This document shows positions 3,898-27,830 of a DNA stretch of 32,252 nt, one piece after another. Position numbers and translations under genes: made by a program. The notes under the pieces are model-generated. The model searched no databases. It saw only the letters and a program-made list of their open reading frames with translations, and was not told where the DNA came from. Source of the stretch: Candidatus Peregrinibacteria bacterium. GTDB lineage: Bacteria > Patescibacteriota > Gracilibacteria > Peribacterales > Peribacteraceae. The stretch spans positions 1 through 32,252 of the forward strand of contig JACPXZ010000006.1 in assembly GCA_016196225.1 (NCBI GenBank). The letters are read 5' to 3'. Position 1 is the first letter of the stretch. Every line of letters starts with the position of its first letter.

Positions 3898-3912
3898 TCT
3901 ACTGTTTGTATC

Positions 3913-3921
3913 TGATACCAT
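3913..3921 (+). promoter_or_regulatory. Extended -10 promoter of the liv operon
   Basis: TGA-TACCAT forms an extended -10 (TG 3913-3914, hexamer 3916-3921). It ends 7 bases before the livH ATG at 3929, so transcription would start at or next to the A of the ATG and give a leaderless message. No convincing -35 or Shine-Dalgarno sequence is visible. Confidence 0.45.
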
Positions 3922-3928
3922 ATCAACA

Positions 3929-4807: not shown

Positions 4808-4811
4808 CTCT

Positions 4812-5681
4812 ATGTCTGCGTACCTCATTCATCTTTCTATCCTTATCGGCATCTATGTTATTCTTTCAACGAGTCTCAATCTCGCGATGGGATTCACAGG
4901 GCTCCTCAATCTCGGACATATTGCCTTCTTTGGGGTGGGTGCCTACACATCGGCAATACTGACGATGGCAGGGGTACCGTTCAGCGTTGCATTCTTCCTT
5001 GCAGGAGCATTTGCCGTCCTCTTCGGTGTCCTCCTTGTTCTGGCAACGCGCAATCTCAAAGGGGATTACCTGGGACTGGCAACCCTTGGATTTGGGTTTG
5101 TGGTGTACTCCGTCTTCCTCAATTGGACTGGACTTACACGTGGCCCCCTTGGGATTCCAGGAATTCCAAAACCGTCACTCCTTACATGGGCTATCCAATC
5201 CAATACGGAGTATCTCTTCTTTGTGCTGCTGGTGATGGCACTCACACTGCTCCTTTTGTGGATGCTCACCAGTTCACCATACGGACGTGTGCTGGAAGCG
5301 GTGCGTGATGATGAAATTGCCGCACGTGTGCTGGGGAAGAATGTTTCGAAGCTCAAGTGTCAGGCTATGGGGATCTCCGCATTCTTTGCAGGGATCGCCG
5401 GATCGCTCTTTGCGCATTACATTACCTACATTGATCCGAGTAGTTTCTTCCTATCGGATATCGTGCTTCTCCTCACGATTGTGATGATCGGGGGACTTGC
5501 GTCACTACGTGGTTCGGTTATTGCAACGGTGATCATTCTCCTTATTCCGGAGGCACTTCGTTTTGTTCATTTGCCATCTTCGATCATTGGCCCCATGCGG
5601 CAGATGATCTACGCACTCCTCCTTATTGTTATTCTTCTTTATCGACCAAGGGGATTTTCGGGTCACGTTGATCTTGCATAA
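4812..5681 (+). CDS. livM: Branched-chain amino acid-type ABC transporter permease LivM
   Basis: A 289-residue polytopic membrane protein with the LivM signature SLNLAMGFTGLLNLGHIAFF (about residues 22-41). Further conserved stretches are GDYLGLATLGFG, TRGPLGIPGIP and AVRDDEIAARVLGKNV (cytoplasmic loop), plus IGGLASLRGSVI near the C-terminus. It forms the second half of the membrane pore with LivH. The chosen ATG lies 4 bases after the livH stop; a longer in-frame start at 4794 overlaps livH and adds nothing conserved. No Shine-Dalgarno sequence precedes it, which fits translational coupling to livH. livG begins 2 bases after its stop. Confidence 0.9.
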   Translation: MSAYLIHLSILIGIYVILSTSLNLAMGFTGLLNLGHIAFFGVGAYTSAILTMAGVPFSVAFFLAGAFAVLFGVLLVLATRNLKGDYLGLATLGFGFVVYSVFLNWTGLTRGPLGIPGIPKPSLLTWAIQSNTEYLFFVLLVMALTLLLLWMLTSSPYGRVLEAVRDDEIAARVLGKNVSKLKCQAMGISAFFAGIAGSLFAHYITYIDPSSFFLSDIVLLLTIVMIGGLASLRGSVIATVIILLIPEALRFVHLPSSIIGPMRQMIYALLLIVILLYRPRGFSGHVDLA

Positions 5682-5683
5682 TT

Positions 5684-6466
5684 ATGTTGCATGCAAAAAA
5701 TATCCATAAGGCGTTTGGGGGAGTGAAAGCCCTGCAAGGGGTGACACTCACTATCCAACCGAAGTGTATCACGGCGCTCATCGGACCGAATGGTGCAGGC
5801 AAGACAACACTCTTTGATATCATCAATGGTCTCATTGCTCCGGATACGGGAGAACTCTTTTTGGAAAAAGAAAATATGACGCGTCTGCCATCGCACATAC
5901 GGGCACAGCGCGGCATCAGCCGCACATGGCAAGCAGTTCGTTTGTTCAAGCATCTCACTATGTTCGATCATCTCCGCATGGCAGAGAATAATGAAGACAC
6001 GAATATTCTAAAAAATATTTTTCTATTTTCAAAAAAACAAACACACACATGTCATCCTGAGGTGCGAGGCAATGCTCAGCATTGCCGAGCCTCGAAGGAT
6101 CATTATGAGCTAGTTTTACAAAAATTCGGCATCGATCGAAGTCCCCAAACTCTCGTCTCTCACTTAAGTTACGGTCAGCGAAAACTTCTGCAATTGGCCA
6201 TGGTCTCGTTGCAACCGCACAAAATTCTTCTTCTCGATGAGCCGGTTGCCGGAGTGAATCAGGTTGTGCAGGCGCATATCGAAAACGTCCTTCTCAAATT
6301 AAAAGACGAAGGGGAGACCATCTGTATCATCGAGCATGATATGGAATTCGTGCAGAAAATCGCCGATCACACCATTGTCATGGATGCGGGGCGGGTGCTC
6401 ATGGAGGGGTCTCCACGAGAGGTCTTGAAGGATAAAATGGTTTTGGAGGCATACTTAGGGGAATGA
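5684..6466 (+). CDS. livG: Branched-chain amino acid-type ABC transporter ATPase LivG, with an in-frame repeat insertion
   Basis: A 260-residue ATP-binding subunit. Walker A is GPNGAGKTT (34-42), the LivG-type stretch RGISRTWQAVRLF follows, the signature is LSYGQ (about 161-165), Walker B is KILLLDEPVAGVN, and the switch histidine lies in IIEHDMEFV. It powers import together with LivF. About residues 115-140 depart from the family: an A/T-rich Lys/Phe stretch is followed by THTCHPEVRGNAQHCRASKD, the translation of a palindromic intergenic-type repeat. The insertion falls in the variable helical region before the signature motif and keeps the frame open, so the enzyme may still work. The TGA stop overlaps an upstream in-frame ATG for the next gene. 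Confidence 0.9.
   Translation: MLHAKNIHKAFGGVKALQGVTLTIQPKCITALIGPNGAGKTTLFDIINGLIAPDTGELFLEKENMTRLPSHIRAQRGISRTWQAVRLFKHLTMFDHLRMAENNEDTNILKNIFLFSKKQTHTCHPEVRGNAQHCRASKDHYELVLQKFGIDRSPQTLVSHLSYGQRKLLQLAMVSLQPHKILLLDEPVAGVNQVVQAHIENVLLKLKDEGETICIIEHDMEFVQKIADHTIVMDAGRVLMEGSPREVLKDKMVLEAYLGE
6050..6101. repeat. Palindromic dispersed repeat inserted inside livG
   Basis: The segment starts TGTCATCCTGAGG and ends CCTCGAAGGATC, the ends of a widespread bacterial repeat that is usually intergenic (often translated as CHPER...SKD). Its centre is a 9-bp inverted repeat, GGCAATGCT (6068-6076) and AGCATTGCC (6078-6086). A related half-element occurs at 27841-27852, between the phosphoesterase gene and deoB. 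Confidence 0.7.
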
Positions 6467-6474
6467 GCGACTTT

Positions 6475-6507
6475 CCCTCTCCCGAGGGGAGAGGGCCAGG
6501 GAGAGGG
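6475..6507. repeat. GC-rich tripartite palindromic repeat between livG and livK1
   Basis: CCCTCTCCC (6475-6483) is followed by GGGAGAGGG (6487-6495) and, after a short spacer, by a second GGGAGAGGG (6499-6507). The left-right-right arrangement matches the elements at 18605-18637 and 28322-28354, and in mirrored form the one in livF. It could form a strong hairpin in the operon transcript and lower or protect parts of the message. Confidence 0.65.
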
Positions 6508-6576
6508 GGTAGAAAATTTCTATATTTTGTCTTGTCTTCCTGCTATTCTCTCTCCCTCATTCTTCCATCATTTTCT

Positions 6577-7689
6577 ATGCACCTACGCCATTCCCTTGCC
6601 TTTCTCATTCTTGTCCCATTGCTTCTCACGGGATGTAATAGGGAAGAGCAAATTTCCAGTACAAAAAATGTCCGAGGTGACGTACCCATACGCATCGGTG
6701 TCCGCGCTCCTCTTACAGGGGATCTGGCGTTGTATGGAGAACATATGCGCAATGGAATGGAGTTAGCAAAAAAAGACCTATTGGCCGTCGATTCCTCTCG
6801 ACATATTGAACTTATCTTCGAGGATGCATGTTTTCCGCAAGATACTATTTCTGCGACACGCAAGATGGTCCAAATCAACGATGTCACTATGATTGGAGGA
6901 TCGTTCTGCCTCTTTGGGCATGTACCTATTCTTCCCTTCACAGAGGAAAATAAGATTATCGCATTCAATACTGCAGCAAATCCTGACGATGTACTCAACA
7001 AGCGATATGCTTTTTCAACCAACTTTTCCATTAAGGAGAATGCTGAAGAGTTAGCACGCTTTGCTTACAAAGATATCGGTGCTCGTCGTGCAGCCATCAT
7101 GCACTTGCAAACGCCATTCGGTGAAGATTACAAGAAGTACATCACACAATCGTTCGAACGTCTTGGTGGTTCCATTGTTGCCACGGAGGCGCGAGCTCCG
7201 GATGCCCGTGATTTTCGTACGGAAGTGACGAAAATGAAGGCTGCAGATCCCGACTTGATTTTTACCATTCATTTCGCAAGCCCTTTAGGAATTTTCTTAA
7301 AACAGTCACGAGAAGCAGGTATTGATGCAAAAATGTTGGGATATTACGAAAACGAGGATCCGACGACGGTTCGTGCATCGCAGGGAGCAGCAGAAGGATT
7401 AATATTTTCTTCCTCCCCCATTGATAGCGTGTTCATGAAACAATACCGTTCTGTCTACAATGACGACCCTGATGTTCTCGCAGCAAATGCTTACGATGCC
7501 CTCATGCTCCAAGTGATGGTCTATGAGAAGTGTGGAAAAGATGTCGATTGCATGGCGGAGGAACTACACGATGTGCGTGGCTACAAAGGAGTAAGTGGAA
7601 CCATTACCATCAACAGCGATGGCTCTGCCTCCAAGCCAACAATCTTTAAAGTGGTTCGCGGTGGCAAATTTCTTCCTTACCAACCCTAA
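6577..7689 (+). CDS. LivK-type substrate-binding lipoprotein, copy 1
   Basis: A 370-residue periplasmic-binding-protein-like receptor (leucine-binding type, fold class I). It has a lipoprotein signal peptide with lipobox LLTGC (Cys20), so the mature protein would be lipid-anchored outside the cytoplasmic membrane. The mature start is followed by IRIGVRAPLTGDLALYGEHM, a typical LivK ligand-lobe opening. Cysteines in EDACF, GGSFC and EKCGKDVDC align with those in copy 2 and suggest disulfides outside the cell. The frame is open back to 6463, but those extra residues translate the palindromic repeat, and the ATG at 6577 gives a standard signal peptide. It would deliver ligand to LivHMGF. Confidence 0.85.
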   Translation: MHLRHSLAFLILVPLLLTGCNREEQISSTKNVRGDVPIRIGVRAPLTGDLALYGEHMRNGMELAKKDLLAVDSSRHIELIFEDACFPQDTISATRKMVQINDVTMIGGSFCLFGHVPILPFTEENKIIAFNTAANPDDVLNKRYAFSTNFSIKENAEELARFAYKDIGARRAAIMHLQTPFGEDYKKYITQSFERLGGSIVATEARAPDARDFRTEVTKMKAADPDLIFTIHFASPLGIFLKQSREAGIDAKMLGYYENEDPTTVRASQGAAEGLIFSSSPIDSVFMKQYRSVYNDDPDVLAANAYDALMLQVMVYEKCGKDVDCMAEELHDVRGYKGVSGTITINSDGSASKPTIFKVVRGGKFLPYQP

Positions 7690-7691
7690 TC

Positions 7692-8831
7692 ATGCATCGT
7701 TCTTTCACTCTTCTCATTCTCATTCCACTTTTCCTTTCTGCGTGCACGTCGCAGGACGTTTCGCAGGATGGAGAGCCGATTAGGATCGGTGTGATCTCAC
7801 CGCTTACAGGACCTGCAGCGACATACGGAGAACCGGCAGCACGAGCAACAGAGCTTGCTGCAAAGGAGATCAATGATGCGGGCGGGATCCTCGGGAGGCC
7901 CATCGAGCTTATTGTGGAAGATGGAAAGTGTGAGGGGAAGGATGCGGCTAGTGCAGCAAGTAAACTGATTCATACTGATCACGTAAAGATTATTCTCGGT
8001 GGTCATTGCAGTACCGAGAGTCTTACGATTGCTCCTATTGCCAACGAGAACAAAGTGCTGCAACTGGCGACACTGACTGCATCCGATGATTACACCAATG
8101 CAGGAGATTATAGTTTTCGTAATTATCCTGCGAGTAGTGTTCGTGATATTCCTCTGGGCAAGGTGGCCTACGAACGGGGTATTCGCACAGTAGCGTCGAT
8201 CTATGAACAGAAGGATTATCCGTTGTCTACATACCGAGCATTTAAAAAAGGATTTGAGGATGCGGGAGGAGAAATTATTCTCGATCAATACTTTGTACCA
8301 GCGGAAAAAGATTTTCGTTCGTATCTTACCAAGATAAAAAATACCAATGCTGATGCCATTTATTTTGCTCCCCAGGCGCCTGAGGAGGCAATTCTCTTCC
8401 TTCGTCAGTTGAATGAGCTTGGGATGCAGCAGTATCCACTCTATGGGAATGCACAAGCAGTTTCGGTTGCGGTATACAAAGGTTCTGATGGTCTCAATGC
8501 AGGTTTACTAGCGACAGATTCGTATGTTGATCCTGAGCTGCCTGCAACACGTTCATTTGTTCAGGCATACGAGAAACTATTTGGATCGTTCCCTCCCATT
8601 AATCTTTTTTGGGTTACCACTGCTTATGATCAATTGTTTCTCCTTAAAGAGGGGATGGAGACTTGTGGACGGGTTGATGACATCGAATGTTTAAAAAAGT
8701 TTTTGTATGATCTGGATACATGGGAGAAAGCCAGTGGTCCTTATTCTTTTGATGACAATGGTGACGGTCTTTTCCCCGTGTATCTCCATTCTTTTACCAA
8801 AGATGGAGAGGAAGTTTTTGAGCCATTATGA
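7692..8831 (+). CDS. LivK-type substrate-binding lipoprotein, copy 2
   Basis: A 379-residue receptor with lipobox FLSAC (Cys18). After a short linker it has IRIGVISPLTGPAATYGEPA, the classical LivK N-lobe motif, then INDAGGILGRPIELIVEDGK. Cysteines in GKCEG, GGHCST and ETCGRVDDIEC match the positions seen in copy 1, so copies 1 and 2 form one subgroup. The gene starts 2 bases after copy 1 and its TGA overlaps the ATG of copy 3 (ATGA). Of the four copies its binding lobes look closest to ordinary LivK. Ligand identity is unknown. Confidence 0.88.
   Translation: MHRSFTLLILIPLFLSACTSQDVSQDGEPIRIGVISPLTGPAATYGEPAARATELAAKEINDAGGILGRPIELIVEDGKCEGKDAASAASKLIHTDHVKIILGGHCSTESLTIAPIANENKVLQLATLTASDDYTNAGDYSFRNYPASSVRDIPLGKVAYERGIRTVASIYEQKDYPLSTYRAFKKGFEDAGGEIILDQYFVPAEKDFRSYLTKIKNTNADAIYFAPQAPEEAILFLRQLNELGMQQYPLYGNAQAVSVAVYKGSDGLNAGLLATDSYVDPELPATRSFVQAYEKLFGSFPPINLFWVTTAYDQLFLLKEGMETCGRVDDIECLKKFLYDLDTWEKASGPYSFDDNGDGLFPVYLHSFTKDGEEVFEPL
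7751..7780 (+). repeat. 30-bp exact direct repeat shared by livK copies 2 and 3
   Basis: The 30 bases at 7751-7780 recur exactly at 8881-8910. In both genes they encode the linker just after the lipid-attached cysteine (QDVSQDGEPI). The rest of the two genes is far more diverged, so this points to duplication with local gene conversion or linker exchange. Confidence 0.9.
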
Positions 8832-9916
8832 AGCGCTTTTTTCCATTGCTGGTGCTGATATTTCTCACAGCCTGCACATTGCAGGACGTTTCGCAGGATG
8901 GAGAGCCGATCAAAATAGGCGGACTCTTTGCGCTGACCGGATATGCGTCGTTTGCGGGAGAGGCCTCAAGAAACGGCTTTCTTATGGCGATCGAAGATGC
9001 CGGCGGCTCAACGCAGTACGTGGTAGAAGATTTTCAATCTGATGTAAAAAATGCTGTAACGGCTGCAAAAAAACTAACGAACATTGACGGGGTTTCCGTT
9101 GTCATTGGCCCAGAATGGAAGGAATTTTCGGTGGCTATTGTTCCCATCGCAGAGGCCACAACGACGCTCTTTATTTCGCCCTGGATGACGGGGGAAGACA
9201 TGGTGAGTGATTATTTCATGACAGCAACGCCGAGTGAGCGATATCAGATCAAAAAAACACTTGAGTATATGAATCAACAGGGGCAGAAGAATATTATTCT
9301 TTTATATTCGCAAAATGCATGGTCCATTGGATATGCCGATATTTTTAAAGAAGAAATAAAAAAGTTTCCTACGTTAAATATCGTCGCAGAGTTTACGACT
9401 CAGCAGGATACGAACGATTATCGTACAGAAATTACGAAGATACAAAAAACAAATCCCGATGCTATTTTTACCGCGATTGCAACAGATGATGGACAAGGAA
9501 TCTTTGGAAAGGAACTCCAAGAGATGGGAGTAGATATCCCTGTTTATACTGCGTATTCACGAGGGTCGAGTGATGTCCTCCTGAACAAGTTTTCAGATGT
9601 TGTCGAAGGTGTGATGTATGGCGCACCCTCTCCCTATGCCAAACAAGACGAGTTTAGAGAGAAGTATCGAAAGCGTTTTGGAAAGGATCCTTCAGCAATC
9701 AGTGCTGCAACGACGTACGATATGACGTCGATTGTTCTCCGTGCGTTAAAAAGCGGGACTAAGACCAGTGCAGACGTTCGAAAGTATATCGAAAAACAGG
9801 AGGCATTTGAAGGATATTCCAATATCATCCGTTTTGATAAGAAGGGACAATTACTTCCGGGAACAGCAGTGATAGAGCAGATTCAGAACGGTCAGCGCGT
9901 AACGATTGCAGAATGA
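8828..9916 (+). CDS. LivK-type substrate-binding lipoprotein, copy 3
   Basis: A 362-residue receptor with lipobox FLTAC (Cys16) and the linker QDVSQDGEPI shared with copy 2. IKIGGLFALTGYASFAGEAS, a more divergent ligand-lobe motif, follows. Unlike copies 1 and 2 it has no cysteines beyond the lipobox. EITKIQKTNPDAIFTAI and the C-terminal VVEGVMYGAPSPYAKQDEF match the usual LivK layout of two Rossmann-like lobes. Translation is probably coupled to copy 2 through the ATGA overlap, and the same kind of overlap links it to copy 4. It probably binds a ligand different from copy 2. Confidence 0.87.
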   Translation: MKRFFPLLVLIFLTACTLQDVSQDGEPIKIGGLFALTGYASFAGEASRNGFLMAIEDAGGSTQYVVEDFQSDVKNAVTAAKKLTNIDGVSVVIGPEWKEFSVAIVPIAEATTTLFISPWMTGEDMVSDYFMTATPSERYQIKKTLEYMNQQGQKNIILLYSQNAWSIGYADIFKEEIKKFPTLNIVAEFTTQQDTNDYRTEITKIQKTNPDAIFTAIATDDGQGIFGKELQEMGVDIPVYTAYSRGSSDVLLNKFSDVVEGVMYGAPSPYAKQDEFREKYRKRFGKDPSAISAATTYDMTSIVLRALKSGTKTSADVRKYIEKQEAFEGYSNIIRFDKKGQLLPGTAVIEQIQNGQRVTIAE

Positions 9917-11004
9917 TTATGTCGAGATTTTCCTCACTGACGGCTGTCGGTTTCTTTTTTTTCCTTACAGCCTGCGCCCAGCAGGTTACAGAGGATCAGG
10001 AACCGATCAAGATCGGTGGGGCGTTTGCGCTCTCCGACTTTGGGGCTGAGTGGGGAGAGGCCGAACTCAACGGCGCGACGCTTGCTATCGAAGAGCAGAA
10101 TGCACGGGGTGGCATTAGAGGGAGGAAGGTTGAGCTTGTTGCGGAGGATACTGCGACTAATGCTTTGAAGACGGTCACGGCCACTCGCAAACTTATTGAT
10201 ATAGATCAGGTGGAGGTGATGGTGGGTCCGACATGGTTTGATTCGTTCGCGGGACCTGCGCCCATTGCAGATCAAGAGGAAGTTGTCATGCTGACGCCGA
10301 GTGCGGCGATTACGGCAGTGCAAGGGGATAATCCCCATCCGTACGTCTTTTCCACGTGGTTCCGGTCTGATGAGGAGAGTCGGGAGATTGCACGATATCT
10401 TGCGAAGATCGGCCAAAAGCGGATTGCATTCTTCTTCGGATTGGATCCTTTTTGGGATGATGTGTCAGCGAAGGCTCGTGAGGAAGCACAAAAGCTCGGA
10501 GTAGAGATTGTCAAAGATATTACCGTGCAGGGGAATGACAGCGATTTTCGTACCATGCTGACTCAACTCAAAAAGATCGAACCGGATGTGATTCTGTTTG
10601 GGTTTAATAACAAGAAGCAGTTTGCCGCTTTCCTTAAGCAGCGTGCGGAGATTTATCCAAATTCCCCGCTTTTCACAACCGAATATATCGAAGAGTTTTT
10701 GGATAACCCCGATTACGCGCCGCTCCTTGCGCCGATGTGGTACATTGCTCCGAAGGTGGAAGAAAGTGCGTTTACCAAGAAGTATCGGGATCGGTTTGGG
10801 AAGGATCCAGTTTTCTCTGCTTCCAATAGTTACGATGCAACCAATATGATTCTTGAGGCGTTTAAATTGGGGAAGACGACGGGTCCGGCCATACGGGAAT
10901 TTTTGGCGGAAAACATGTTTGAAACGGTGACGTTTGGGAAGCTAAAATTCGATGAAATTGGAGGCGTAAAGGGTGGGGCGTTTATTATAAAGGAGGTCAA
11001 ATAG
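9913..11004 (+). CDS. LivK-type substrate-binding lipoprotein, copy 4
   Basis: A 363-residue receptor (361 if the second ATG at 9919 is used) with lipobox FLTAC and the opening IKIGGAFALSDFGAEWGEAE. GIRGRKVELVAEDTATN follows, then VEVMVGPTW in the first lobe. Like copy 3 it lacks the extra cysteines. The opening lacks the usual PLTG element of the amino acid-binding loop (ALSDFGAEWGE here), which suggests an altered ligand. Its start overlaps the copy 3 stop, and an AGGAGG stretch near its end lies upstream of livF. Confidence 0.87.
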   Translation: MIMSRFSSLTAVGFFFFLTACAQQVTEDQEPIKIGGAFALSDFGAEWGEAELNGATLAIEEQNARGGIRGRKVELVAEDTATNALKTVTATRKLIDIDQVEVMVGPTWFDSFAGPAPIADQEEVVMLTPSAAITAVQGDNPHPYVFSTWFRSDEESREIARYLAKIGQKRIAFFFGLDPFWDDVSAKAREEAQKLGVEIVKDITVQGNDSDFRTMLTQLKKIEPDVILFGFNNKKQFAAFLKQRAEIYPNSPLFTTEYIEEFLDNPDYAPLLAPMWYIAPKVEESAFTKKYRDRFGKDPVFSASNSYDATNMILEAFKLGKTTGPAIREFLAENMFETVTFGKLKFDEIGGVKGGAFIIKEVK

Positions 11005-11007
11005 GAG
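11004..11007 (+). promoter_or_regulatory. Shine-Dalgarno-like site for livF
   Basis: GGAG lies 6 bases before the GTG at 11014, and AGGAGG lies further up at 10991-10996. This is one of the very few Shine-Dalgarno-like sites in the window, and it supports the GTG at 11014 over the downstream GTG at 11029. Confidence 0.5.
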
Positions 11008-11013
11008 AGCTCG

Positions 11014-11751
11014 GTGTATGCTGCGTGTGTGTTAGAGATTAGGAATCTTCATGCTGGCTACGAAGATTTGGAGGTCTTGAAAGGTGTGGATTTGATCTTG
11101 GAGCAGAGGAAGATCGGTGTGCTGCTCGGGCCCAATGGAGCGGGGAAAAGTACACTCATCAAAGCTATTTTTAATCTGGTGAAGATAACAAAGGGTGATA
11201 TTCGGTTTTATGGGGAAAATCTTCGTGATCTTTATACGCATGATCTTTTGGCACATGGCATCACGTATGTCCCCCAAGGACGCATTAATTTTGGCATGCT
11301 GACGGTCGAAGAAAATCTTTTGATGGGATTAACCCTCTCCCCAACCCTCTCCCTTAAAAGGGAGAGGGAAAATCATATGGAACGGATATTCGCGCAGTTC
11401 CCTGTTCTTAAAGAAAAGCGCAAGGAATATGCTTTTCGTCTCTCGGGAGGGCAGCAGCAGCAATTGGCACTCGGCCGGGCGCTTATGATGATGCCCAAAC
11501 TCCTTCTCCTTGATGAACCTTCGCTCGGTCTTGCGCCAAAACTCGTAAAGGAGATTTTCGTAACCATCAAACGCATTAATCAGGAATTCGGTATATCGAT
11601 CCTTGTGGTCGAACATAATATCAAAAGTGTTGTTGATATAGCAGACCAGTGTTTTGTGATGGTACAGGGGAAAATTGTGAAGAGCGGCCCCGCGTCAGCA
11701 TTGAAGGACAGCAGTGTTCTGCAGAAAGTATTTGTAGGGAAGTTTGATTAA
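11014..11751 (+). CDS. livF: Branched-chain amino acid-type ABC transporter ATPase LivF, with an in-frame repeat insertion
   Basis: A 245-residue ATPase. Walker A is GPNGAGKST (39-47), YVPQGRINFGMLTVEENL is the LivF-type Q-loop region, the signature is LSGGQQQ, Walker B is LLLLDEPSLGLAP, and the switch histidine lies in VVEHN. It partners LivG. Residues about 107-120 (LTLSPTLSLKRERENH) are encoded by a GC-rich palindromic repeat and have no counterpart in typical LivF, although the frame is kept. It starts with GTG; a later GTG at 11029 would give the common family start LEIRNLHAGY. It is the last gene of the liv operon and converges on tsf with only 9 bases between the stops and no visible terminator. 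Confidence 0.9.
   Translation: MYAACVLEIRNLHAGYEDLEVLKGVDLILEQRKIGVLLGPNGAGKSTLIKAIFNLVKITKGDIRFYGENLRDLYTHDLLAHGITYVPQGRINFGMLTVEENLLMGLTLSPTLSLKRERENHMERIFAQFPVLKEKRKEYAFRLSGGQQQQLALGRALMMMPKLLLLDEPSLGLAPKLVKEIFVTIKRINQEFGISILVVEHNIKSVVDIADQCFVMVQGKIVKSGPASALKDSSVLQKVFVGKFD
11331..11371. repeat. GC-rich palindromic repeat inserted inside livF
   Basis: AACCCTCTCCCC is followed by AACCCTCTCCC and then, after TTAAAA, by GGGAGAGGG. The perfect stem is 11345-11353 with 11360-11368, extendable by two A-T pairs. It belongs to the same family as 6475-6507 but is arranged left-left-right, as if inserted in the opposite orientation. Confidence 0.75.
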
Positions 11752-19217: not shown

Positions 19218-20504
19218 TTAGTACACTGGTACTACGTGATTAATGATCGTGAAGAGCGCAACACATATCAGGGCCACCTTCCATGCGCGTACGGATCGGC
19301 ATGCGTACAAATTGTTACTCAAGAGGTACCCGATCCCAAAAATAACCGGTGCGATGTAAATCGCCTTTGCCGGATGCCACGGAGCGTACGGCTTATCATA
19401 GACAAACTGCAGAGAAGCGATGACCTGCAGGAGGGAGAAGGTTAGGACAACCAGTCCCAGTGCTCTCCATAATGGGGGAGAGCGGTGACGATATTTTCGC
19501 AGAGCAATGAAGCCGCTCAAAAGAAGGATGGGCATCGAGGCGATGTACATCATGCTCACAAAAATGGAGGGAGAATTTTGTGCCCGAAACCATGTGGAAC
19601 GTGCCCAAATACTGTTCCATGTATCAAAGAGGCGGATCCCGGCAAAGTCAAAATCTTCGAGTGCGGTTCCCTCTGCGTGTGCGATGGGGGCGAATAATTG
19701 ATTGAGGACGAATGTCAGTCGATCTTGGTTGCGCTCGGCCTGATACGGTTCGATCCATCCGTCATTATTGGAAGGGAGAAACACTCCTTCGGTTTTGTAA
19801 TAGCGGTTGAAGTAGTATGGAGAAGCGAGAGCGAGAGCGAAGATACTGAGGAAAGTGGCGGCGGTAATACGTTTAAATTGGAACTGTGTTTTCGGAGAGA
19901 AGACGGCGACGAGAGGAGGAATGGTAAGGAGGATAAGGCCGGAGAAACGCGTGAGGAGAGAGAACGTAAGGACGGCGATGAGGCCGAGAGTGAGGCGGAT
20001 CGTTTGTTCACGCGTATTCTCACACCAAAAAAGTCGGATAGAGACATAGAGGGTGGCGCTCGCACAGGCGACGATGATTGCATCGAGATTGATACTCGCG
20101 GCCATGTAGACTTGGAGGGGGATACTGGCAGTGAGATAAAGGAAGGCGAGGGAGACCGGGTGATAGAGGAGGTTTAAGTGTTGAAGAGTTGCTCGGAGGA
20201 AGAAGAATGCCGTAAGGGAGGCTGCAAACGAAACGAGTTGTACGCTCACAATATCACTGACCCCGAGGGACATCAGTGAGTGGGGCAGGAGGAAGCCAAG
20301 CGGAGGATGATAGCTAAAAAAGCTTTCCCGGACGCCGACAATCGGGTTTTTCCACGAGAGGATCTGGAGCATCCATCGATGGGCGTCACTATCAAATCCC
20401 CACGACTCCCCCCATCGACTAAAGAGGATCCATAGGCGACTCGAGAGGAAGACCGTGAGCAAAAATCGCTCCCATCGTACCCATGTATTTACATGTCCAG
20501 ACAT
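19218..20504 (-). CDS. ArnT/GT39-like integral membrane glycosyltransferase
   Basis: A 428-residue polytopic protein with about ten hydrophobic segments. The first loop has WGFDSDAHRWMLQIL and SFFSYHPPLGFLLPHSLM, resembling the acidic-plus-HPP loop of GT39/GT83 enzymes that use polyprenyl-phosphate sugars outside the membrane. ASINLDAIIVACAS is a further conserved membrane motif. The frame can be read from a TTG at 20522, but that codon lies upstream of the -10 hexamer TATAAT, so the ATG at 20504 is chosen. It is a separate unit from the GT39 gene 51 bases downstream, which has its own promoter. The sugar and acceptor cannot be told from sequence. Confidence 0.75.
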   Translation of the reverse strand: MSGHVNTWVRWERFLLTVFLSSRLWILFSRWGESWGFDSDAHRWMLQILSWKNPIVGVRESFFSYHPPLGFLLPHSLMSLGVSDIVSVQLVSFAASLTAFFFLRATLQHLNLLYHPVSLAFLYLTASIPLQVYMAASINLDAIIVACASATLYVSIRLFWCENTREQTIRLTLGLIAVLTFSLLTRFSGLILLTIPPLVAVFSPKTQFQFKRITAATFLSIFALALASPYYFNRYYKTEGVFLPSNNDGWIEPYQAERNQDRLTFVLNQLFAPIAHAEGTALEDFDFAGIRLFDTWNSIWARSTWFRAQNSPSIFVSMMYIASMPILLLSGFIALRKYRHRSPPLWRALGLVVLTFSLLQVIASLQFVYDKPYAPWHPAKAIYIAPVIFGIGYLLSNNLYACRSVRAWKVALICVALFTIINHVVPVY

Positions 20505-20510
20505 CCGATC

Positions 20511-20516
20511 ATTATA
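20511..20516 (-). promoter_or_regulatory. -10 box of the ArnT-like gene (leaderless type)
   Basis: A perfect minus-strand TATAAT lies 6 bases before the ATG at 20504, so the first transcribed base should be the A of the start codon. No strong -35 is seen. It faces away from the prsW promoter 21 bases to its right. Confidence 0.55.
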
Positions 20517-20534
20517 CCGCAATTCGTAAAAATG

Positions 20535-20543
20535 TGCTATAAT
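20535..20543 (+). promoter_or_regulatory. Extended -10 promoter of prsW
   Basis: TGC-TATAAT is a consensus extended -10 (hexamer 20538-20543) ending 9 bases before the ATG at 20553. The transcript leader would be at most a few bases. Confidence 0.55.
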
Positions 20544-20552
20544 AACCAGATT

Positions 20553-21914
20553 ATGCCCTTTCTTGCGCTGTCACTGACATTCTCCCTTAGTAAGACTGCT
20601 GCGGTTGTCGTTGCCGTGATACTCCTCGCAAGTTTTGACCTTTCGGAGCGTCTAAAACATCGCGAGTCTCATGTGATCTTTGCATCGATCTTAGGGACGG
20701 TACTCTCTCTTTCGATCCTTGCGATTGTGCGTGCGCTCTTGCAACCCGGGATACAGGAGAATGCACACGTCATGGCGCTCGGAGTGCTTACGATTGTGCT
20801 CCTTTGGCGATGTCTCTTTGGTCCATGGGCGGCTCAAACAAAGGCGGTTGTTTTGGGGACATTTCTCTTTTGGATCGGGCTCTATACATTTTTTCACGAA
20901 CCTCCCGAACATCGTCTCATTCGGATCCTTGCAACGATCACGGCGATCATCCCTGCGGTGATCTGGTGCGTGCTCTTCCTCGAGTATCACCGGGAGCGGC
21001 TGGCAAGCGTTGTCCTTATGTTTTTTGCAGGCATGGTTGCCACGATTCCGATTCTTTTTTATGACGCGCTGGTGCGGAGGGGGGTGGAACTTCAATTTTT
21101 TGTGGTCAAACTTAAACCCGAGAGTTTTAACCAGTCCACGGAGCAATTTGTCTCGGGACAATTGATTGGGATCACGCCGCTCCATTCGACCATACTCACT
21201 GTTTTTCTATCGTTCATCATTGTGGGACTCATTGAAGAAGTCAGTAAGTATTGGGTGCTGCGTCGGAATGGGGAACCGTTTATCACGAGTGTGGACGATA
21301 TGCTCCAACTCTCCATCATGGTGGCCATCGGTTTCTCCTTTGCGGAGAACATTACCAATCCGGGATACTTTATGGGATTTGTCCGTGAGTATCTCGTCTT
21401 CCCGGATCGACCGGATATCATCGGTTTTATCAGTAATGTTGTCGGTCGGTCAGTGATGACCACCATGGTCCACATCGTCTCGACGGGAGTCATGGGGTAC
21501 TTCATCGGCCTTGCCATCTTTGCGAACCCGCTTCTCGAAGAGGGGTACAAGCAGGGGAGAATCAATCAGGTGGTTGAATGGCTTCATACCATACTGCGTG
21601 TCAAACGTGTACCGATCTTCCGGACAGAGATGCTCATTGTGGGTGTGGTGAGCGCGATTGTGTTGCATGGACTCTTTAACTTTTTGGTCACGCTCCCGGA
21701 TATCCTCCCAGGTAATCCCCGTACCCTTGGTGATCTCTTTGGTGTCCCGGGTCACCCGATACTCAAATATCTCGCGATTCTTCTTTTACCCGCTCTTTTC
21801 TATGTGGTCGGGGGCTTTTGGATGTTGACGGGACTTTTTATGAATAAAGAAAACATGAAGGAGCGGGGACATTTGGTCCAGAAGGAGGTATTTATCAAGG
21901 AGGCGGTGGCGTAG
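20553..21914 (+). CDS. PrsW-type intramembrane protease homolog
   Basis: A 453-residue polytopic membrane protein of the PrsW/CAAX-protease-like superfamily. The active-site pair is E228/E229 in GLIEEVSKYWVLRR, with the EExxK pattern. The second motif is GFSFAENITN, the third MVHIVSTGVMGYFIG, and the fourth H372 and N376 in LHGLFN. In Bacillus, PrsW performs site-1 cleavage of an anti-sigma factor; here the substrate is unknown and no sigma/anti-sigma pair is encoded nearby. The N-terminal third adds several membrane spans beyond the core. The chosen ATG follows the promoter, while a longer frame from 20493 would run through it. The VTT gene follows 14 bases later. Confidence 0.8.
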   Translation: MPFLALSLTFSLSKTAAVVVAVILLASFDLSERLKHRESHVIFASILGTVLSLSILAIVRALLQPGIQENAHVMALGVLTIVLLWRCLFGPWAAQTKAVVLGTFLFWIGLYTFFHEPPEHRLIRILATITAIIPAVIWCVLFLEYHRERLASVVLMFFAGMVATIPILFYDALVRRGVELQFFVVKLKPESFNQSTEQFVSGQLIGITPLHSTILTVFLSFIIVGLIEEVSKYWVLRRNGEPFITSVDDMLQLSIMVAIGFSFAENITNPGYFMGFVREYLVFPDRPDIIGFISNVVGRSVMTTMVHIVSTGVMGYFIGLAIFANPLLEEGYKQGRINQVVEWLHTILRVKRVPIFRTEMLIVGVVSAIVLHGLFNFLVTLPDILPGNPRTLGDLFGVPGHPILKYLAILLLPALFYVVGGFWMLTGLFMNKENMKERGHLVQKEVFIKEAVA

Positions 21915-21928
21915 AGTATTCATCATTC

Positions 21929-22546
21929 ATGCGCCATTGGTCCAACATTGCATTCGGTCTGTTCATTGTTTTTATCATCGCACTTGGGCTCTGGGAATAT
22001 CAGTGGGATCTGAAGGCTCTCGAAGACGGTATCCGGGCGGAGCCGCTTTTGGGTGCACTTCTTTATATAACACTCCTCATTGCATCGGTGGTGCTGCTCC
22101 CATTCTCATCTCTCCCGCTCCTACCACTGGCCGCGCGGATCTTTGGAGTATGGATGACGGGAGTCTTGAGCATCATCGGCTGGTGGCTGGGTTGTCTCAT
22201 CGCCTTCCAGATTGCGCGTCTCGGGCGGAGTGTCCTTGAGCGTTTTGTATCCTTCGCAGTTGTCGATCGGTTGGAGCGGCGGATTCCTCCGGATATCAAT
22301 TTTGCGGGGATCGTGATGCTCCGCATGATCCTCCCGGTCGATCTCACCAGCTTTGCGTTGGGACTCCTCAAAAATCTCCGTTTTTCTACCTATGCGGTGG
22401 CATCTCTTCTGGGGATCATGCCATTTGCATTTGTCTGGAGTTATGCGGGAGGGGAGATCGGGCGCGGGGAGATCTTGCCGGGGATAGCGATCCTACTTGT
22501 GTTACTCCTTACAGTGATGATGCTCCGGAGGAAGTGGTTACGGTGA
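21929..22546 (+). CDS. TVP38/TMEM64 (VTT/SNARE-associated domain) membrane protein
   Basis: A 205-residue membrane protein with about five hydrophobic segments. It contains the VTT core: VVLLPFSSLPLLPLAARIFG (re-entrant segment with prolines), then GWWLGCLIAFQIARLGRS, then FAGIVMLRMILPVDLTSFALGLL. Relatives (TVP38, DedA, TMEM41B) are implicated in lipid scrambling or transport across membranes. It lies 14 bases after prsW and ends before the S41 protease gene, so all three may be cotranscribed. No ribosome site is visible. Confidence 0.8.
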   Translation: MRHWSNIAFGLFIVFIIALGLWEYQWDLKALEDGIRAEPLLGALLYITLLIASVVLLPFSSLPLLPLAARIFGVWMTGVLSIIGWWLGCLIAFQIARLGRSVLERFVSFAVVDRLERRIPPDINFAGIVMLRMILPVDLTSFALGLLKNLRFSTYAVASLLGIMPFAFVWSYAGGEIGRGEILPGIAILLVLLLTVMMLRRKWLR

Positions 22547-22592
22547 CGGTGCCGAGTCAGAGAATCGTGTATCAGTTTCGGATCATGTGCAG

Positions 22593-22598
22593 TAGAAT
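22593..22598 (+). promoter_or_regulatory. Possible -10 box for the S41 protease gene
   Basis: TAGAAT ends 10 bases before the ATG at 22609. The -35 region is poor and the box lies just after the VTT gene, so an operon with prsW is equally possible. Confidence 0.25.
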
Positions 22599-22608
22599 TG
22601 CTGCAATC

Positions 22609-24219
22609 ATGTACAGGATACTTAGTCGGCTTTCCGTCATATTTCTTACTCTTATATTTCCTGTAGGCGTCTTTGCGGCGCCGCGTCCCGTCGATCTTCT
22701 CAAAGTCGATAACGATGAGATCGTGACCCGGGGAGATTTTATCCGGGCGGCCGTCAACATTCTTGGTCTCTCTATAAAGGAAGGGGGAGAACTTCCCTAT
22801 CCGCGGATTCCACGGGGTCTTATCCCCTATATTTCAACCGCGTATAACAAAGGCGCGCTCGATCATCTCGGGGACGATCTCCGCCTTGGGCAGGGGATCA
22901 CGCGAGGCGATGCGTTGCTCCTCCTCGTTCGTTTGATGAATCTCGAGCCGGAGCTTTCTCCAAGTCGATCCTTTCGGGATGCCCCCAAAGGAACACTCCT
23001 CGGTGATGCGGTACAGACGGCGGTGGAGCATGAGTGGATGGAATCATTTTCGGGCAGTCTCTTCGGTGTGCGGCGGATACTCCTCGGACAGGAAGCAAGA
23101 CTCCTCCTCGGACGACTGGGCAAAGAAGTAACCATCCCGAAAAAGCCCGAACGTATTCAGATCCGGTTTTCGTTGCCCGAACAAAAAGAACTTCCCAAAA
23201 AGGATATCCTGCAGACGATTTGGGATCTCCTCAACAAGCAGTTTTTGTATGACGATCGCATTGATCCGGAAGAAGCAGCGTACCGAGCTGCAGAATCGAT
23301 CGTGCAGAGTATGAAGGATCCCTATACAACCTTTATGCGACCGGTATCGGCACGGAACTTCCAGACCCAAATTGACGGCGAGGTATCCGGGATCGGCGCG
23401 CAGGTTGAGTATGTCAATGAGATCCTCACGATTGTGAGTCCGCTCCCGGGATCGCCGGCGCAGGCGGCGGGACTCAAGCCCGGCGATCAGATCATTCTGG
23501 TGGACGGGGAGACCGTCATCGGACTTGGATTTTTGGAGGGGGTGGAGAAGGTTCGCGGACCCAAGGGGTCGAGCGTGATTCTGCGCATTCGGCGAAATGG
23601 TGCGGATTTTGATGTTACGGTTATTCGGGACACGGTCAAAGTCCCCGAGATTAAGATCAGCTGGCAGGGCGAGGTTGCGGTTGTTCAACTCATTCAGTTC
23701 GGCCGGTCGGTCGATAACGGATTTCGATCAGAACTGATCGAGATCCAAAAACGAAAACCAAAAGGGATTATTCTGGACTTACGCAATAACCCCGGGGGAC
23801 TCCTGCATGCAGCCCAGAGTGTTCTTGCAAACTTTCTTCCGTTGGGCAGTACTTTTGCCATTATCCGCACGCGAGGAGAGGAAGTCCGTGAGTTGACGGA
23901 TACGTCGCCCACGATTGATCGCAGTATCCCGATGGTGGTTCTCGTCAATGGGGGGTCCGCAAGCGCATCCGAGATTGTGGCGGGGGCATTGCAGGATACC
24001 AAGCGCGCCCGCATTGTCGGAGAAAAAACATTTGGTAAGGGAACCGTTCAGCAGGTCATTGAGTTCAATGACGGGTCGAGTATCAAGATGACGATTGCCG
24101 AATGGTTTACCCCAAGTGAGCGCAAAATCGATGGGGCGGGGATCAAGCCGGACTTCGCTCTTGCGAATACCGATAATCGTGATGAGCAGATGCTGAAGGC
24201 GTTGGATCTCTTACGATAA
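22609..24219 (+). CDS. Secreted SLH-like/PDZ/S41 C-terminal-processing protease
   Basis: A 536-residue exported serine protease. A signal peptide (MYRILSRLSVIFLTLIFPVG) is followed by about 140 residues resembling two S-layer-homology repeats (TRGDFIRAAVNILGL, YISTAYNKGALDHLG, GITRGDALLLLVRLM). A helical linker follows, then a PDZ domain (about 250-335; SGIGAQVEYVNEI to LKPGDQIILVDGE), then the S41 catalytic core. S452 in GGSASASE and K477 in GEKTFGKGTVQ, 25 residues apart, match the Ser-Lys dyad of CtpA-type proteases. The SLH-like part would hold it on the cell wall or surface, so it probably trims envelope proteins. The ATG at 22609 is chosen because it gives a clean signal peptide; the frame is open back to 22534, inside the preceding gene. 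Confidence 0.85.
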   Translation: MYRILSRLSVIFLTLIFPVGVFAAPRPVDLLKVDNDEIVTRGDFIRAAVNILGLSIKEGGELPYPRIPRGLIPYISTAYNKGALDHLGDDLRLGQGITRGDALLLLVRLMNLEPELSPSRSFRDAPKGTLLGDAVQTAVEHEWMESFSGSLFGVRRILLGQEARLLLGRLGKEVTIPKKPERIQIRFSLPEQKELPKKDILQTIWDLLNKQFLYDDRIDPEEAAYRAAESIVQSMKDPYTTFMRPVSARNFQTQIDGEVSGIGAQVEYVNEILTIVSPLPGSPAQAAGLKPGDQIILVDGETVIGLGFLEGVEKVRGPKGSSVILRIRRNGADFDVTVIRDTVKVPEIKISWQGEVAVVQLIQFGRSVDNGFRSELIEIQKRKPKGIILDLRNNPGGLLHAAQSVLANFLPLGSTFAIIRTRGEEVRELTDTSPTIDRSIPMVVLVNGGSASASEIVAGALQDTKRARIVGEKTFGKGTVQQVIEFNDGSSIKMTIAEWFTPSERKIDGAGIKPDFALANTDNRDEQMLKALDLLR

Positions 24220-24302: not shown

Positions 24303-27300
24303 ATGAAGACGTCCGAGTCTCACGGGAAGGAACCAAAAAGTGGAGGCTCGGTGTCCCTAAAAAGAATACCTGCATTTGATAAAAAAACACTTCAGGCGCT
24401 GCTTACGGTTCATCAGGAAAATCTTACTAGTGAAACAGGAGGAATCATGGAGAGTGTGTCTACTGTACTTTCACTTTCTGAAACAGATATCACGCATGCT
24501 ATTACGGCCCGCGTGCGGGCACTACGGGAGGACATTGGGATACTGCTTTCCAGAGTTGAGAAGTTTAAAACATTTAAGCGACTTTCTCCGTCTACTCTCC
24601 AGGAGGTCAAGGAGCATCTCGATGACGATTCGTCTCTGCAGGAGCTGACGCGATGGAAAAATGCTCTTTCCCGTGAGCTTTTGGCGCGGGATCAGGATCC
24701 GGATGCCATATTGGAGAAGTCCTTTAAAAAGCGGGAGGGGGATAGGCAGTATCAGACGGATACTCGGATTCTTGATCAAGTCGAGATCGTTTTCCTCCTT
24801 GACGAAATCGCTCGTAACCGCGAGAGGGCGGTCCGAGAAACATTGGAAGCGACGGTCGCACGTTCCGGGCCACAGAGCCCACTCGTCGAGGTTCGTCGAA
24901 ACTTGTTCAATCTTCTTTCGGGTCCAAAAAAACAACAGTTTTCTGCGGCGGAGAAGTTTGATTCTCTTCGCGGAGAAATTCGGGAAGATCGGGATGAGCA
25001 GGAGTACCAGGATTGTGCCGAGAAAATTCTTGCCGCCTTTGGGCGGCGGGAAGGACAATCACCGTTCCACACGATTGAGACCGTCAAGAAAATTCTGAGA
25101 AATGATGACGAGGGACGCGTTAAACATGTGCTTGGCCGGATGAATCAGGAAGAGCAGATCGCCTTTATGATGGGAGCTCAAGGGGAGGAGTTGTATCTCT
25201 GTCGTGATAAAAAGGTGGTCAAGTATACGACGGGAGAATTTGTAGATATCTTGGATCCCTTGTACTTCGATAAAGTCGGACAGTTTTTGCGCGATGCTCT
25301 CAATAAAAATGAGATCGTTGATAAAGATTATCTGGCAGATCATGCGCACGAGCTCAAACTCCCTCCAGATATCGCAGAGTGGATCCTTGATTGCTATGTC
25401 GACTTAAAGCGTCTTCGTCGTACCAAAGATCGAGGCTACCAAATGCCCAAAGATGAAGAAAAATCAGTCTTGAGCTCAACGGTCTTTAAGCGTGTCGGTC
25501 TTGCCCAGCAGTTTTATGAACTGGCTGGTGCACTCAATGATGAGGACATGAGCGATATACCCAAAGGAGTAAATTGGGAGACGATTTCTGAAGACTATCG
25601 GCGGTTCCGTCAACGGCGGAAGGTCGCAGAGGTTCCATTAAAAACAGATAAACCTTCGGCGAAAGTGTTGCATTTCAGCGAGATTCAATTTGGACATAAG
25701 GATTTGGATGAGGAGGCATTGCAACGGTTTGTCGATACGCTCCGTACGCTTCCGATGGAAGAGCGACCTGATCAAATTGTCGTATCGGGGATTGTTTTTG
25801 GTCGGTTTAGAAACTGGGATAAGGACAAGCATCGTCTTAAGGTGTATGAGATAGATGAACAGCTCAAATGTGCGAAGTTTTTCCTCGATCAATTGCAGGA
25901 ACTGGGGATCCCGATGGTGTATAACATGAGTGATAACGATGCGTTGATTGCGAAGGAATATACGTACGATGCTGTGCATCTTATGGAAAGTCTGCTTCAG
26001 GGGGTTGAATATGAGTTTGATCCAACGATGAAGCGCCACTTGGCGCGCGGAGCTGCCTATTGGCAATTTGAGCAGGCGCAACGGAGCCGAGCGTGGCCGC
26101 AGCATTTTGCCTTCCAATGGGATGTCGTCTTCCCCTATATGCTGCGATCAGGACGGCATTTACTCTCGGCAGAGGATGTCCTTGCGCAACATGGAGAGTA
26201 TATGGAGGAATATCTTCTTCTCCTCTATGTATACCAAAAAAGGAAGAATGGCGAAGATCTTGCCGCATTGGCGAAAGGGGGGGATAAGATTGCGGAGCTT
26301 GCATTGAAGGTGCTCAATGTCAACGCAGTGCTTCTCCGGGACGAAGTGAAGGATGATCAACTGCGGGTCACATCGGATTTTAATATGAATATCAATACCA
26401 AGGGGCGGAAGTGGAAGTGGGAAGAGAAGCACTTCTTTCGGCAGAGTCCGGCAGCGAAGGTCCAAGATCCTTTGAAGGAGGCTCGCGAAAATATCGGACA
26501 GCGGCATGCGATGAAAGAAGAAGCGCCGCGTGTCTTTGCTATTGAGGGAGAATCGCATACGGTGGGGTCTCTTGAGGGTGGCAATACCCTTGTCTTTGCA
26601 ACGCCAGGATTACATCGAGTACGTGATGGAGATAGTTCCTACACGGGTGTGCAGTCTGATGAGGGTAGGCGCAAGTATCTCTCCCGGAGGGAACGCTTTA
26701 CGCCGGGGGTGACCCCGATCACTCTCGGGGATGACGGACGCATCTTTATTGATTTTTGGAACGAACGGTTTCTCGATAAAGCGGCCAAGTCGAAAGAGCG
26801 TGTTGCGGTTGCACACTTTTCCGATTGGCAGACCGGATCGGTAACATCCCGTCCCGATCTGTATACGAAGGCTCTTGATTATGTTTTCCATGAGCTCATG
26901 CGGTTCCGCAGAACCTATCTTTTCCTTAATGGGGACATTATCCAGGGGCGCAATTATCCTAACATGCCGAATGAGAACTGTGATATCGGTCTCGTGCGTC
27001 CACCCGATCAGAAGCTCTTTGTGGAGACAGTCATTCATAATGTTCTCTCCGGAGTATCAGCGGATCTCAAGTCAAAATTGCAATCCGTGAGCATCACGCC
27101 GGGGAATCATGAGTGGAATAGCGGGTACGCGCAGTATGGAGAGATGCACTCACAGTATCTTCGGACAATCTTTTACAACTGGCTCGGTGGTCATCAGCAG
27201 ATCAACTATGGTATCGATAGTCCAATCCGATACGGTCCCGAGTACTTCAAGTCATCGACGGTGGTGGAGAACGTGGGGGGGTATCGGATTCTGGCCCAGC

Positions 27301-27830
27301 ACATGTTCTTGGAGAAGGGGGGGAAGGGGAGCGGGGGATTACCGGTTTATGGTTTTCGGGATTTGTTACGGGGGGTTGGAGGGAAGATGGGGAGCATTGA
27401 TGCGATGCTCACGGGGCATTACCACCACCCAAGCTGGCACATGGTGAATGATAAACTCGGTGTCATCAATGGGTCGATTGCAGGTACGTCAGGATATGAA
27501 TGGTGGCGGGGGTACAATCCGGTGATCGGGACGACGGTTTTGCATCTCGGTGGTGGGCTCCCTCCCAAGCTGGAAATCCTCACGGAGGAAGCGCTGCTCA
27601 ATTACAAACCACGGGGGTATTACTCGGATGAAAATCTTGCGCGGAAAGGATTCAATACCGATCGTGGTTTTGATTCGCGCGAGCATGGATTTGGACGTCT
27701 GCGTGTTCGAGATACCGATGCCGAAGGAGTTCCCCAACAAAAGAAGCTTCCACAAAGTGCGTTGCAAAAGGCTTTGTGGGACAAGGTGGAGGATATCCTG
27801 CGAGGAGTGACTGCGAATTTGAAGGAGTAA
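24303..27830 (+). CDS. Large protein with tandem calcineurin-like phosphoesterase modules, first one degenerate
   Basis: An 1175-residue protein with no membrane segment or signal peptide. Residues 1-450 are charged, probably helical, and unlike anything I recognise. Module 1 (about 454-600) begins KVLHFSEIQFGH, with VVSGIVFGR and MSDND in place of NGD and GNHD, so its metal site is lost. Residues 600-830 are a linker. Module 2 (about 833-1100) has HFSDWQTG (D841, Q843), LNGDIIQGR (D878), TPGNHEW (N935, H936) and LTGHYHHP (H1039, H1041), a near-complete phosphoesterase site with Gln where the first His is usual. The SDW.xG and GNHE motifs recall SbcD/Mre11-type nucleases, but substrate and activity are unknown. 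The start at 24303 is set by the upstream promoter; the frame is open from 24258. Confidence 0.75.
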   Translation: MKTSESHGKEPKSGGSVSLKRIPAFDKKTLQALLTVHQENLTSETGGIMESVSTVLSLSETDITHAITARVRALREDIGILLSRVEKFKTFKRLSPSTLQEVKEHLDDDSSLQELTRWKNALSRELLARDQDPDAILEKSFKKREGDRQYQTDTRILDQVEIVFLLDEIARNRERAVRETLEATVARSGPQSPLVEVRRNLFNLLSGPKKQQFSAAEKFDSLRGEIREDRDEQEYQDCAEKILAAFGRREGQSPFHTIETVKKILRNDDEGRVKHVLGRMNQEEQIAFMMGAQGEELYLCRDKKVVKYTTGEFVDILDPLYFDKVGQFLRDALNKNEIVDKDYLADHAHELKLPPDIAEWILDCYVDLKRLRRTKDRGYQMPKDEEKSVLSSTVFKRVGLAQQFYELAGALNDEDMSDIPKGVNWETISEDYRRFRQRRKVAEVPLKTDKPSAKVLHFSEIQFGHKDLDEEALQRFVDTLRTLPMEERPDQIVVSGIVFGRFRNWDKDKHRLKVYEIDEQLKCAKFFLDQLQELGIPMVYNMSDNDALIAKEYTYDAVHLMESLLQGVEYEFDPTMKRHLARGAAYWQFEQAQRSRAWPQHFAFQWDVVFPYMLRSGRHLLSAEDVLAQHGEYMEEYLLLLYVYQKRKNGEDLAALAKGGDKIAELALKVLNVNAVLLRDEVKDDQLRVTSDFNMNINTKGRKWKWEEKHFFRQSPAAKVQDPLKEARENIGQRHAMKEEAPRVFAIEGESHTVGSLEGGNTLVFATPGLHRVRDGDSSYTGVQSDEGRRKYLSRRERFTPGVTPITLGDDGRIFIDFWNERFLDKAAKSKERVAVAHFSDWQTGSVTSRPDLYTKALDYVFHELMRFRRTYLFLNGDIIQGRNYPNMPNENCDIGLVRPPDQKLFVETVIHNVLSGVSADLKSKLQSVSITPGNHEWNSGYAQYGEMHSQYLRTIFYNWLGGHQQINYGIDSPIRYGPEYFKSSTVVENVGGYRILAQHMFLEKGGKGSGGLPVYGFRDLLRGVGGKMGSIDAMLTGHYHHPSWHMVNDKLGVINGSIAGTSGYEWWRGYNPVIGTTVLHLGGGLPPKLEILTEEALLNYKPRGYYSDENLARKGFNTDRGFDSREHGFGRLRVRDTDAEGVPQQKKLPQSALQKALWDKVEDILRGVTANLKE

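Follow-up and report, generated by a model that had tools for sequence, protein, structure and literature searches.

A rare tandem of a degenerate and an intact metallophosphoesterase module, with phage kinship, in Peribacteria, Saccharibacteria and Melainabacteria

What does a protein with two phosphoesterase-like modules, one of them without the usual catalytic motifs, do in a bacterium with a genome of 1.085 Mb? The question is raised by an open reading frame (ORF) at 24303..27830 (+) in a stretch of 32,252 nucleotides (the window, meaning the whole of this DNA) from contig JACPXZ010000006.1 of a Candidatus Peregrinibacteria bacterium, a tiny, probably host-attached organism whose genome is assembled in 38 contigs. 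The ORF is open throughout and encodes 1175 amino acids, as in the original prediction, which was made from the letters of the window; homologs at the protein level in three bacterial groups show that the gene is real. The protein belongs to a known superfamily, the metallophosphoesterases (MPEs), and has an ordinary enzyme fold in an unusual architecture, a pseudoenzyme and an enzyme in tandem. Its kinship with phage proteins and its scattered occurrence in distantly related lineages with small genomes are also notable.

As judged from its residues, the second module (828-1110; 26784..27632) has an intact two-metal MPE active site. Metallophos (PF00149) was the sole Pfam match above cut-off in the protein, at residues 836-1042 (E 1.3e-4), and all five motifs of the two-metal site of the superfamily are present. 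Motif I is HFSDWQTG (838-845; 26814..26837), with D841 and, as the third motif I position, Q843; motif II is NGD (876-878; 26928..26936), ending in D878; motif III is GNHE (934-937; 27102..27113), with N935 and H936; motif IV is H1000 (27300..27302); and motif V is GHYH (27414..27425), with H1039 and H1041, within GHYHHP at 1038-1043. Across 15 full-length homologs from the three bacterial groups D841, Q843, D878, N935, H936, H1000, H1039 and H1041 are invariant (15/15 each), the pattern that a functional two-metal centre should show; G877 is also invariant, and the first Gly of GHYHHP becomes Ser or Ala in some homologs. A conserved tail at the C-terminus (1111-1175; 27633..27827) includes G1116, D1120, D1124, A1153 and K1156, again invariant in the 15. 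The five-motif site is absent from the first module (446-829; 25638..26789), identified as a degenerate MPE by its profile match to module 2, its beta-alpha order in the AlphaFold2 model and its unconserved ligands. Its motif I reads HFSEIQFGH (457-465; 25671..25697), and by sequence and alignment SGI (495-497; 25785..25793) stands at the place of NGD and NMSDND (541-546; 25923..25940) at that of GNHD; a helical insertion lies inside the module at about residues 573-670. The metal-ligand positions of module 1 vary across the 15 homologs, and its conserved residues include G464, D546 and R790. A search of PDB sequences with the module 1 profile gave no match. The original prediction was thus accurate in stating that NGD and GNHD had been lost from the first module and that NGD, GNHE and GHxHxP had been kept in the second. 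Homologs without the first module, a case which it had held up against itself, did not occur, both modules being present in all 15 aligned proteins.

The closest kin of module 2 is the phage family phrog_284. The module matched the PHROG profile of this family, annotated as exonuclease, with an E-value of 5e-12, and hhalign against 16 viral DxQ MPEs gave a probability of 99 and a P of 3.7e-18 over 245 columns. All 16 of the aligned viral proteins belong to phrog_284, and their universal DxQ follows from selection, the sample having been chosen by motif. Foldseek searches with the model of the two-module core also placed phage metallophosphatases first (E 3e-11 to 5e-11). Profile and motif set (DWQxG, GD, GNH, H and GHxH) are common to module 2 and phrog_284, whereas the phage proteins have a single module, are mostly 350-450 amino acids long and carry GNHG, and the family of the window has two modules, the first degenerate, a length of 763-1244 amino acids and GNHE/D, with a predicted winged-helix N-terminus added in Peribacteria. 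A scan of IMG/VR for the pattern ADWQxGK returned at least 120 stretches, and the complete ORFs among the matches listed are mostly of 350-450 amino acids with GNHG-type and GHxH-type motifs. Among the phages that infect Actinobacteria, hundreds carry an annotated relative, often under the name 'MRE11 double-strand break endo/exonuclease'; the one in Streptomyces phage Animus has genes for a primase, a helicase and a Holliday resolvase around it. Growth of Mycobacterium smegmatis is nearly abolished when gp34 of phage Hammy, which bears the same name and is linked here by that name and not by phrog_284 assignment, is overexpressed (PMC10700055). In tblastn searches module 2 alone gave chance-level matches to phages (E 3-10), the whole protein gave no match to phages and plasmids, and the full and core alignments found no tandem-module relative in the viral contigs of IMG/VR.

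Other MPE systems are more distant. In the PDB, the core model matched the 3'-5' exonuclease PolD DP1 (2.8e-7) and Mre11 (about 1e-6). PolD DP1, an archaeal small subunit, and the eukaryotic B-subunits resemble the window protein in their MPE exonuclease fold (NCBIfam E 6e-4 at best) but lack the tandem architecture, and membership in PolD DP1 was rejected at 17.4 bits against a cut-off of 445. Catalytically dead MPE copies are known from the eukaryotic DNA polymerase B-subunits. SbcD/Mre11 profiles matched module 2 weakly (E 0.005-0.02), but the window protein has DxQ where DxH is usual and received no SbcD family call; membership was rejected on the DxQ and the lack of an adjacent SbcC/Rad50 gene. 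ADPRibase-Mn has in common with the window protein only the conserved D-x-Q with its Gln and differs in length and architecture, with no sequence match between the two; this enzyme has D[V/I]Q as its motif, and a docking model places the side chain of the Gln in the coordination of metal 1 (PMC4334965).

The Gln in motif I had been taken as the sign of a distinct family, and this did not hold. The pattern HFS(E/D)xQxG does open both modules of the window protein, as HFSEIQFG at 457-464 and again in motif I of module 2. The position of Q843 is Gln in 15/15 homologs, but that of Q462 in module 1 is Gln in 4, Leu in 8 and Arg in 3, and the acidic position before it is occupied by E, N or D. The four proteins with Gln in module 1 are confined to a Peregrinibacteria clade, and therefore the residue is a feature of one lineage and no family signature. 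DxQ is not distinctive either, as the active modules of ADPRibase-Mn and of the sampled phrog_284 phage MPEs carry it. What makes the family distinct is the tandem pseudoenzyme-enzyme architecture together with family-specific sequence.

The 450 N-terminal residues had been described as matching nothing recognisable, which is correct for sequence families, where no match was found, and not for the AlphaFold2 model. A helical region (residues ~27-244; 24381..25034), with a pLDDT of about 50-90 depending on the block, is shared with loci L008, L009 and L011. It is followed by two predicted winged-helix domains, one at residues ~245-301 (25035..25205; pLDDT 82-92, helices and a wing hairpin) and the other at ~310-381 (25230..25445), with mostly 76-92 over the two units. 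Foldseek matched them to winged-helix proteins (RNA polymerase III complex chains, SelB and MntR), with top probabilities of 0.9-0.99; because the E-values exceed 0.01, tandem winged helices are supported, not proven. The full N-terminal extension is missing from the Melainabacterial and most Saccharibacterial members, and therefore winged helices are not general in the family.

The tandem-MPE family, which no Pfam or NCBIfam model describes as such, is rare and patchy and occurs in Peribacteria/Peregrinibacteria, Saccharibacteria and Melainabacteria. The gene was found in 4/74 genomes of the same taxonomic family, in 2/380 sampled genomes of the same phylum (the window's own included) and in 5/393 sampled genomes of the Saccharibacterial class; one Melainabacterial order had it in 6 of 11 genomes and the phylum-wide sample in 3 of 292. 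With the window protein alone as query no relative was detected in genome contigs, and the relatives came with an alignment query. The Melainabacterial proteins from the first three genomes (767-775 amino acids) are ~43% identical to the window protein over the core, against 31-32% for other Peribacteria. In the maximum-likelihood tree the window protein groups with Peregrinibacteria (support 88/87, with a long-branch flag), and a well supported Melainabacterial clade is adjacent to this group. In the window and in another Peribacterium (G008/L009) the gene has an S41 peptidase gene on one side and nucleoside-salvage genes on the other, and in two further Peribacteria it adjoins a DsbA-like gene. 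A pair of PrsW-like and S41 peptidase genes (20493-24219 in the window; L172-L187 elsewhere) is present in 16/16 examined Peribacteria loci, with the MPE downstream in two. This, and the differing gene sites, points to a gene that is mobile or repeatedly lost.

Some observations concern single homologs. The proteins of two Peribacteria (L009 7788-11501 and L011 7788-11522) agree at about 90-100% of the C-terminal ~450 positions and at about 43-70% of the N-terminal ~730, and silent sites step likewise (about 0.6 vs 0.3 identity), which looks like recombination exchanging the catalytic half. A 2OG-Fe(II) oxygenase gene adjoins the tandem MPE, in differing orientation, in three Melainabacterial loci (L005 5457-7620, L010 10203-12518 and L004 6278-7555), and a membrane-protein gene is also a neighbour in two Melainabacterial genomes. 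The genome search flagged a single in-frame TAA within one Melainabacterial homolog (L037 2402-4729; G466 C44 2399-4546); nevertheless, the locus has an ORF of 775 amino acids from a TTG start that is open over the whole core.

A neighbour gene of another kind was found in Saccharibacteria. At 4/5 Saccharibacterial tandem-MPE loci a divergent adjacent gene encodes a protein in which a winged helix at the N-terminus is combined with a Nudix domain. A close form of this gene occurs in 8/295 genomes, and the chance of four tandem-MPE genomes all falling within these eight is about 2 in ten million by a simple count, although two of the genomes are near relatives. The four other genomes have a single-module phage-type DxQ MPE as the divergent neighbour (phrog_20266, E 3e-40 to 2.5e-49), so that a DxQ MPE stands beside the winged-helix Nudix gene at 8/8 loci of the class, four tandem and four single. 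The Nudix genes lie at L007 4102-4773(-), L034 4325-4978(-), L031 8189-8869(+), L032 4645-5361(-), L160 6313-7023(+), L161 6684-7415(+), L162 6941-7672(+) and L163 7092-7760(-). The association is strong within Saccharibacteria; no close Nudix match was found in the window genome, in other Peribacteria, in Melainabacteria or in the fifth Saccharibacterium, and therefore the partner is not required by the family. Among the single-module loci (L160-L163), the MPE of one Saccharibacterium has its nearest relatives in phages that infect Actinobacteria (Clavibacter, Microbacterium and Mycobacterium). Cultivated Saccharibacteria live on Actinobacteria (PMC10633639).

The reading that is favoured, with a modest degree of confidence, is a pseudoenzyme-enzyme tandem in which module 2, as a member of the phage DxQ / MRE11-like exonuclease class, would act as a nuclease or phosphodiesterase that depends on Mn. 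D841, Q843, D878, N935, H1000, H1039 and H1041 would hold two metals, probably Mn2+, with H936 assisting catalysis, and the activity of module 2 would be exo- or endonucleolytic cleavage of phosphodiester bonds. Module 1, a duplicate of the same kind of domain with its metal site lost, would probably serve as a scaffold or as a surface that grips the substrate, and in Peribacteria the added N-terminus with its two putative winged helices would probably hold nucleic acid and present it to module 2. In its favour are the invariant site of module 2 beside the varying one of module 1, the matches of module 2 to exonuclease-annotated phage proteins, PolD DP1 and Mre11, the replication and recombination genes around the Animus relative, the growth effect of Hammy gp34, the profile similarity of the two modules and the predicted winged helices. 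The intact site of module 2, the degeneration of module 1 and the phage kinship are computational findings, and we only infer the Mn dependence, the nucleic acid substrate and the role of module 1. Several points weigh against this reading: the AlphaFold2 models are mediocre (mean pLDDT 66 for the two-module core and 65 for the other model), and poor over the second half of module 1; many members lack the full N-terminal extension; no SbcC/Rad50-type partner was seen beside the window gene; the phage 'MRE11' names rest on annotation; and a nucleotide enzyme, ADPRibase-Mn, has DxQ as its signature as well. To our knowledge, no member of the tandem-MPE family has been tested biochemically. The duplication itself, which the original prediction had proposed, is probable, not proven. 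Comparison of modules 1 and 2 by hhalign gave a P of 0.03 with 9-row alignments and, with 15 rows, a score of 33.7, a P of 0.001 and a probability of 22%, a weak signal that also counts against the favoured reading, as does the absence of an MPE among the best 50 Foldseek matches of the model of N-terminus and module 1. These two results, the unconserved Gln and the non-significant hhalign match of module 1 to the viral MPE profile (P 0.08) would suit a module 1 that is an unrelated alpha/beta domain, its HFSxxQxG likeness being due to chance. Such an origin is quite improbable: column-shuffled controls scored 14.7 +/- 2.3 and 0/60 reached 33.7, a gap of ~8 s.d., while reversed profiles gave 13.6 and 14.5. 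In most clade-against-clade comparisons the alignment begins no later than column 11 of either module, in the same register, SGIVFGRF...Q being aligned opposite NGDIIQGRNY...Q, and in the core model module 1 runs strand-helix-strand-helix-strand-helix, helical insertion and strand-rich half, an order of strands and helices that parallels module 2.

The main rival to a nuclease is a nucleotide phosphodiesterase or pyrophosphatase (of ADP-ribose, NAD-derived, CDP-alcohol or cyclic-nucleotide type), with the Saccharibacterial partner as a Nudix-type sensor or hydrolase in nucleotide or NAD/ADP-ribose metabolism or signalling. The D-x-Q of ADPRibase-Mn, with its Gln on metal 1 in the docking model, and the rare Nudix gene at all eight loci are consistent with it, and HD, HAD and PPP-like genes lie near some of the Nudix-MPE loci; ADP-ribose is the ligand sensed by Nudix-sensor regulators (NrtR), and ADP-ribose systems include phosphatases of the calcineurin-like, HD and HAD types (PMC9503650). 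This alternative is nevertheless doubtful, since the window, the other Peribacteria, the Melainabacteria and one Saccharibacterium have no close Nudix match, the neighbours of module 2 in sequence and fold are exonuclease-annotated phage MPEs, PolD and Mre11, and ADPRibase-Mn is not among the best 50 fold matches. A combination of elements, rather unlikely, would be an undescribed two-part system in which a phage-derived DxQ MPE tandem is controlled by, or cooperates with, a winged-helix Nudix sensor reading a nucleotide such as ADP-ribose, the sensor gene being absent from Peribacteria and a winged-helix N-terminus fused instead; if true, it could serve defence or nucleic-acid salvage in small, mostly host-attached bacteria. 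RNA-end healing, the removal of 2',3'-cyclic or 3' phosphates within an RNA-repair set, would agree with phage RNA-repair neighbourhoods, in which calcineurin-like, HAD and Nudix enzymes are found together (PMC9503650), and with two Saccharibacteria in which the Nudix-MPE pair has a HAD_SAK ('Swiss army knife' RNA repair) like and an HD phosphatase-like protein among its neighbours. However, these neighbours flank single-module MPEs and not the tandem, and the surroundings of the window gene showed neither an RNA ligase nor a kinase; this role is quite unlikely.

The tandem as a pseudoenzyme-enzyme pair matters beyond its exact substrate. In the small subunits of DNA polymerases, inactive copies of the phosphoesterase fold are known to assist a partner; in the present family one chain contains both an inactive and an active copy, in small genomes prone to gene loss, and the family offers a ready test of the service of a pseudo-phosphoesterase to its active twin. 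It also connects bacterial genomes, and a Nudix gene as partner, with an 'MRE11-like' enzyme class that is widespread in phages.

The window gene itself lies between an S41 (C-terminal processing) peptidase gene upstream (22534..24219 (+); PF03572, E 1.5e-48) and a phosphopentomutase gene. The peptidase was rejected as a functional partner or part of a system because the PrsW-S41 pair occurs in Peribacteria without the MPE. Membership in a known anti-phage defence family was also rejected, as neither the window protein nor a tandem MPE from Saccharibacteria matched any PADLOC-DB model. The well-spaced promoter of its own that had been proposed for the gene, TTGAAA-17-TAGGAT (9/12), does not rise above chance: the region has 2 promoter-like sites, fewer than the 4.4 of the average shuffle, and the second hexamer, TAGGAT, ends 10 nt upstream of the ATG. 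Elsewhere in the window, a locus at 3875-11751, read by eye, encodes a branched-chain amino-acid type ABC transporter with two permeases, two ATPases and four consecutive substrate-binding protein genes, a locus unusual in a genome of 1.1 Mb.

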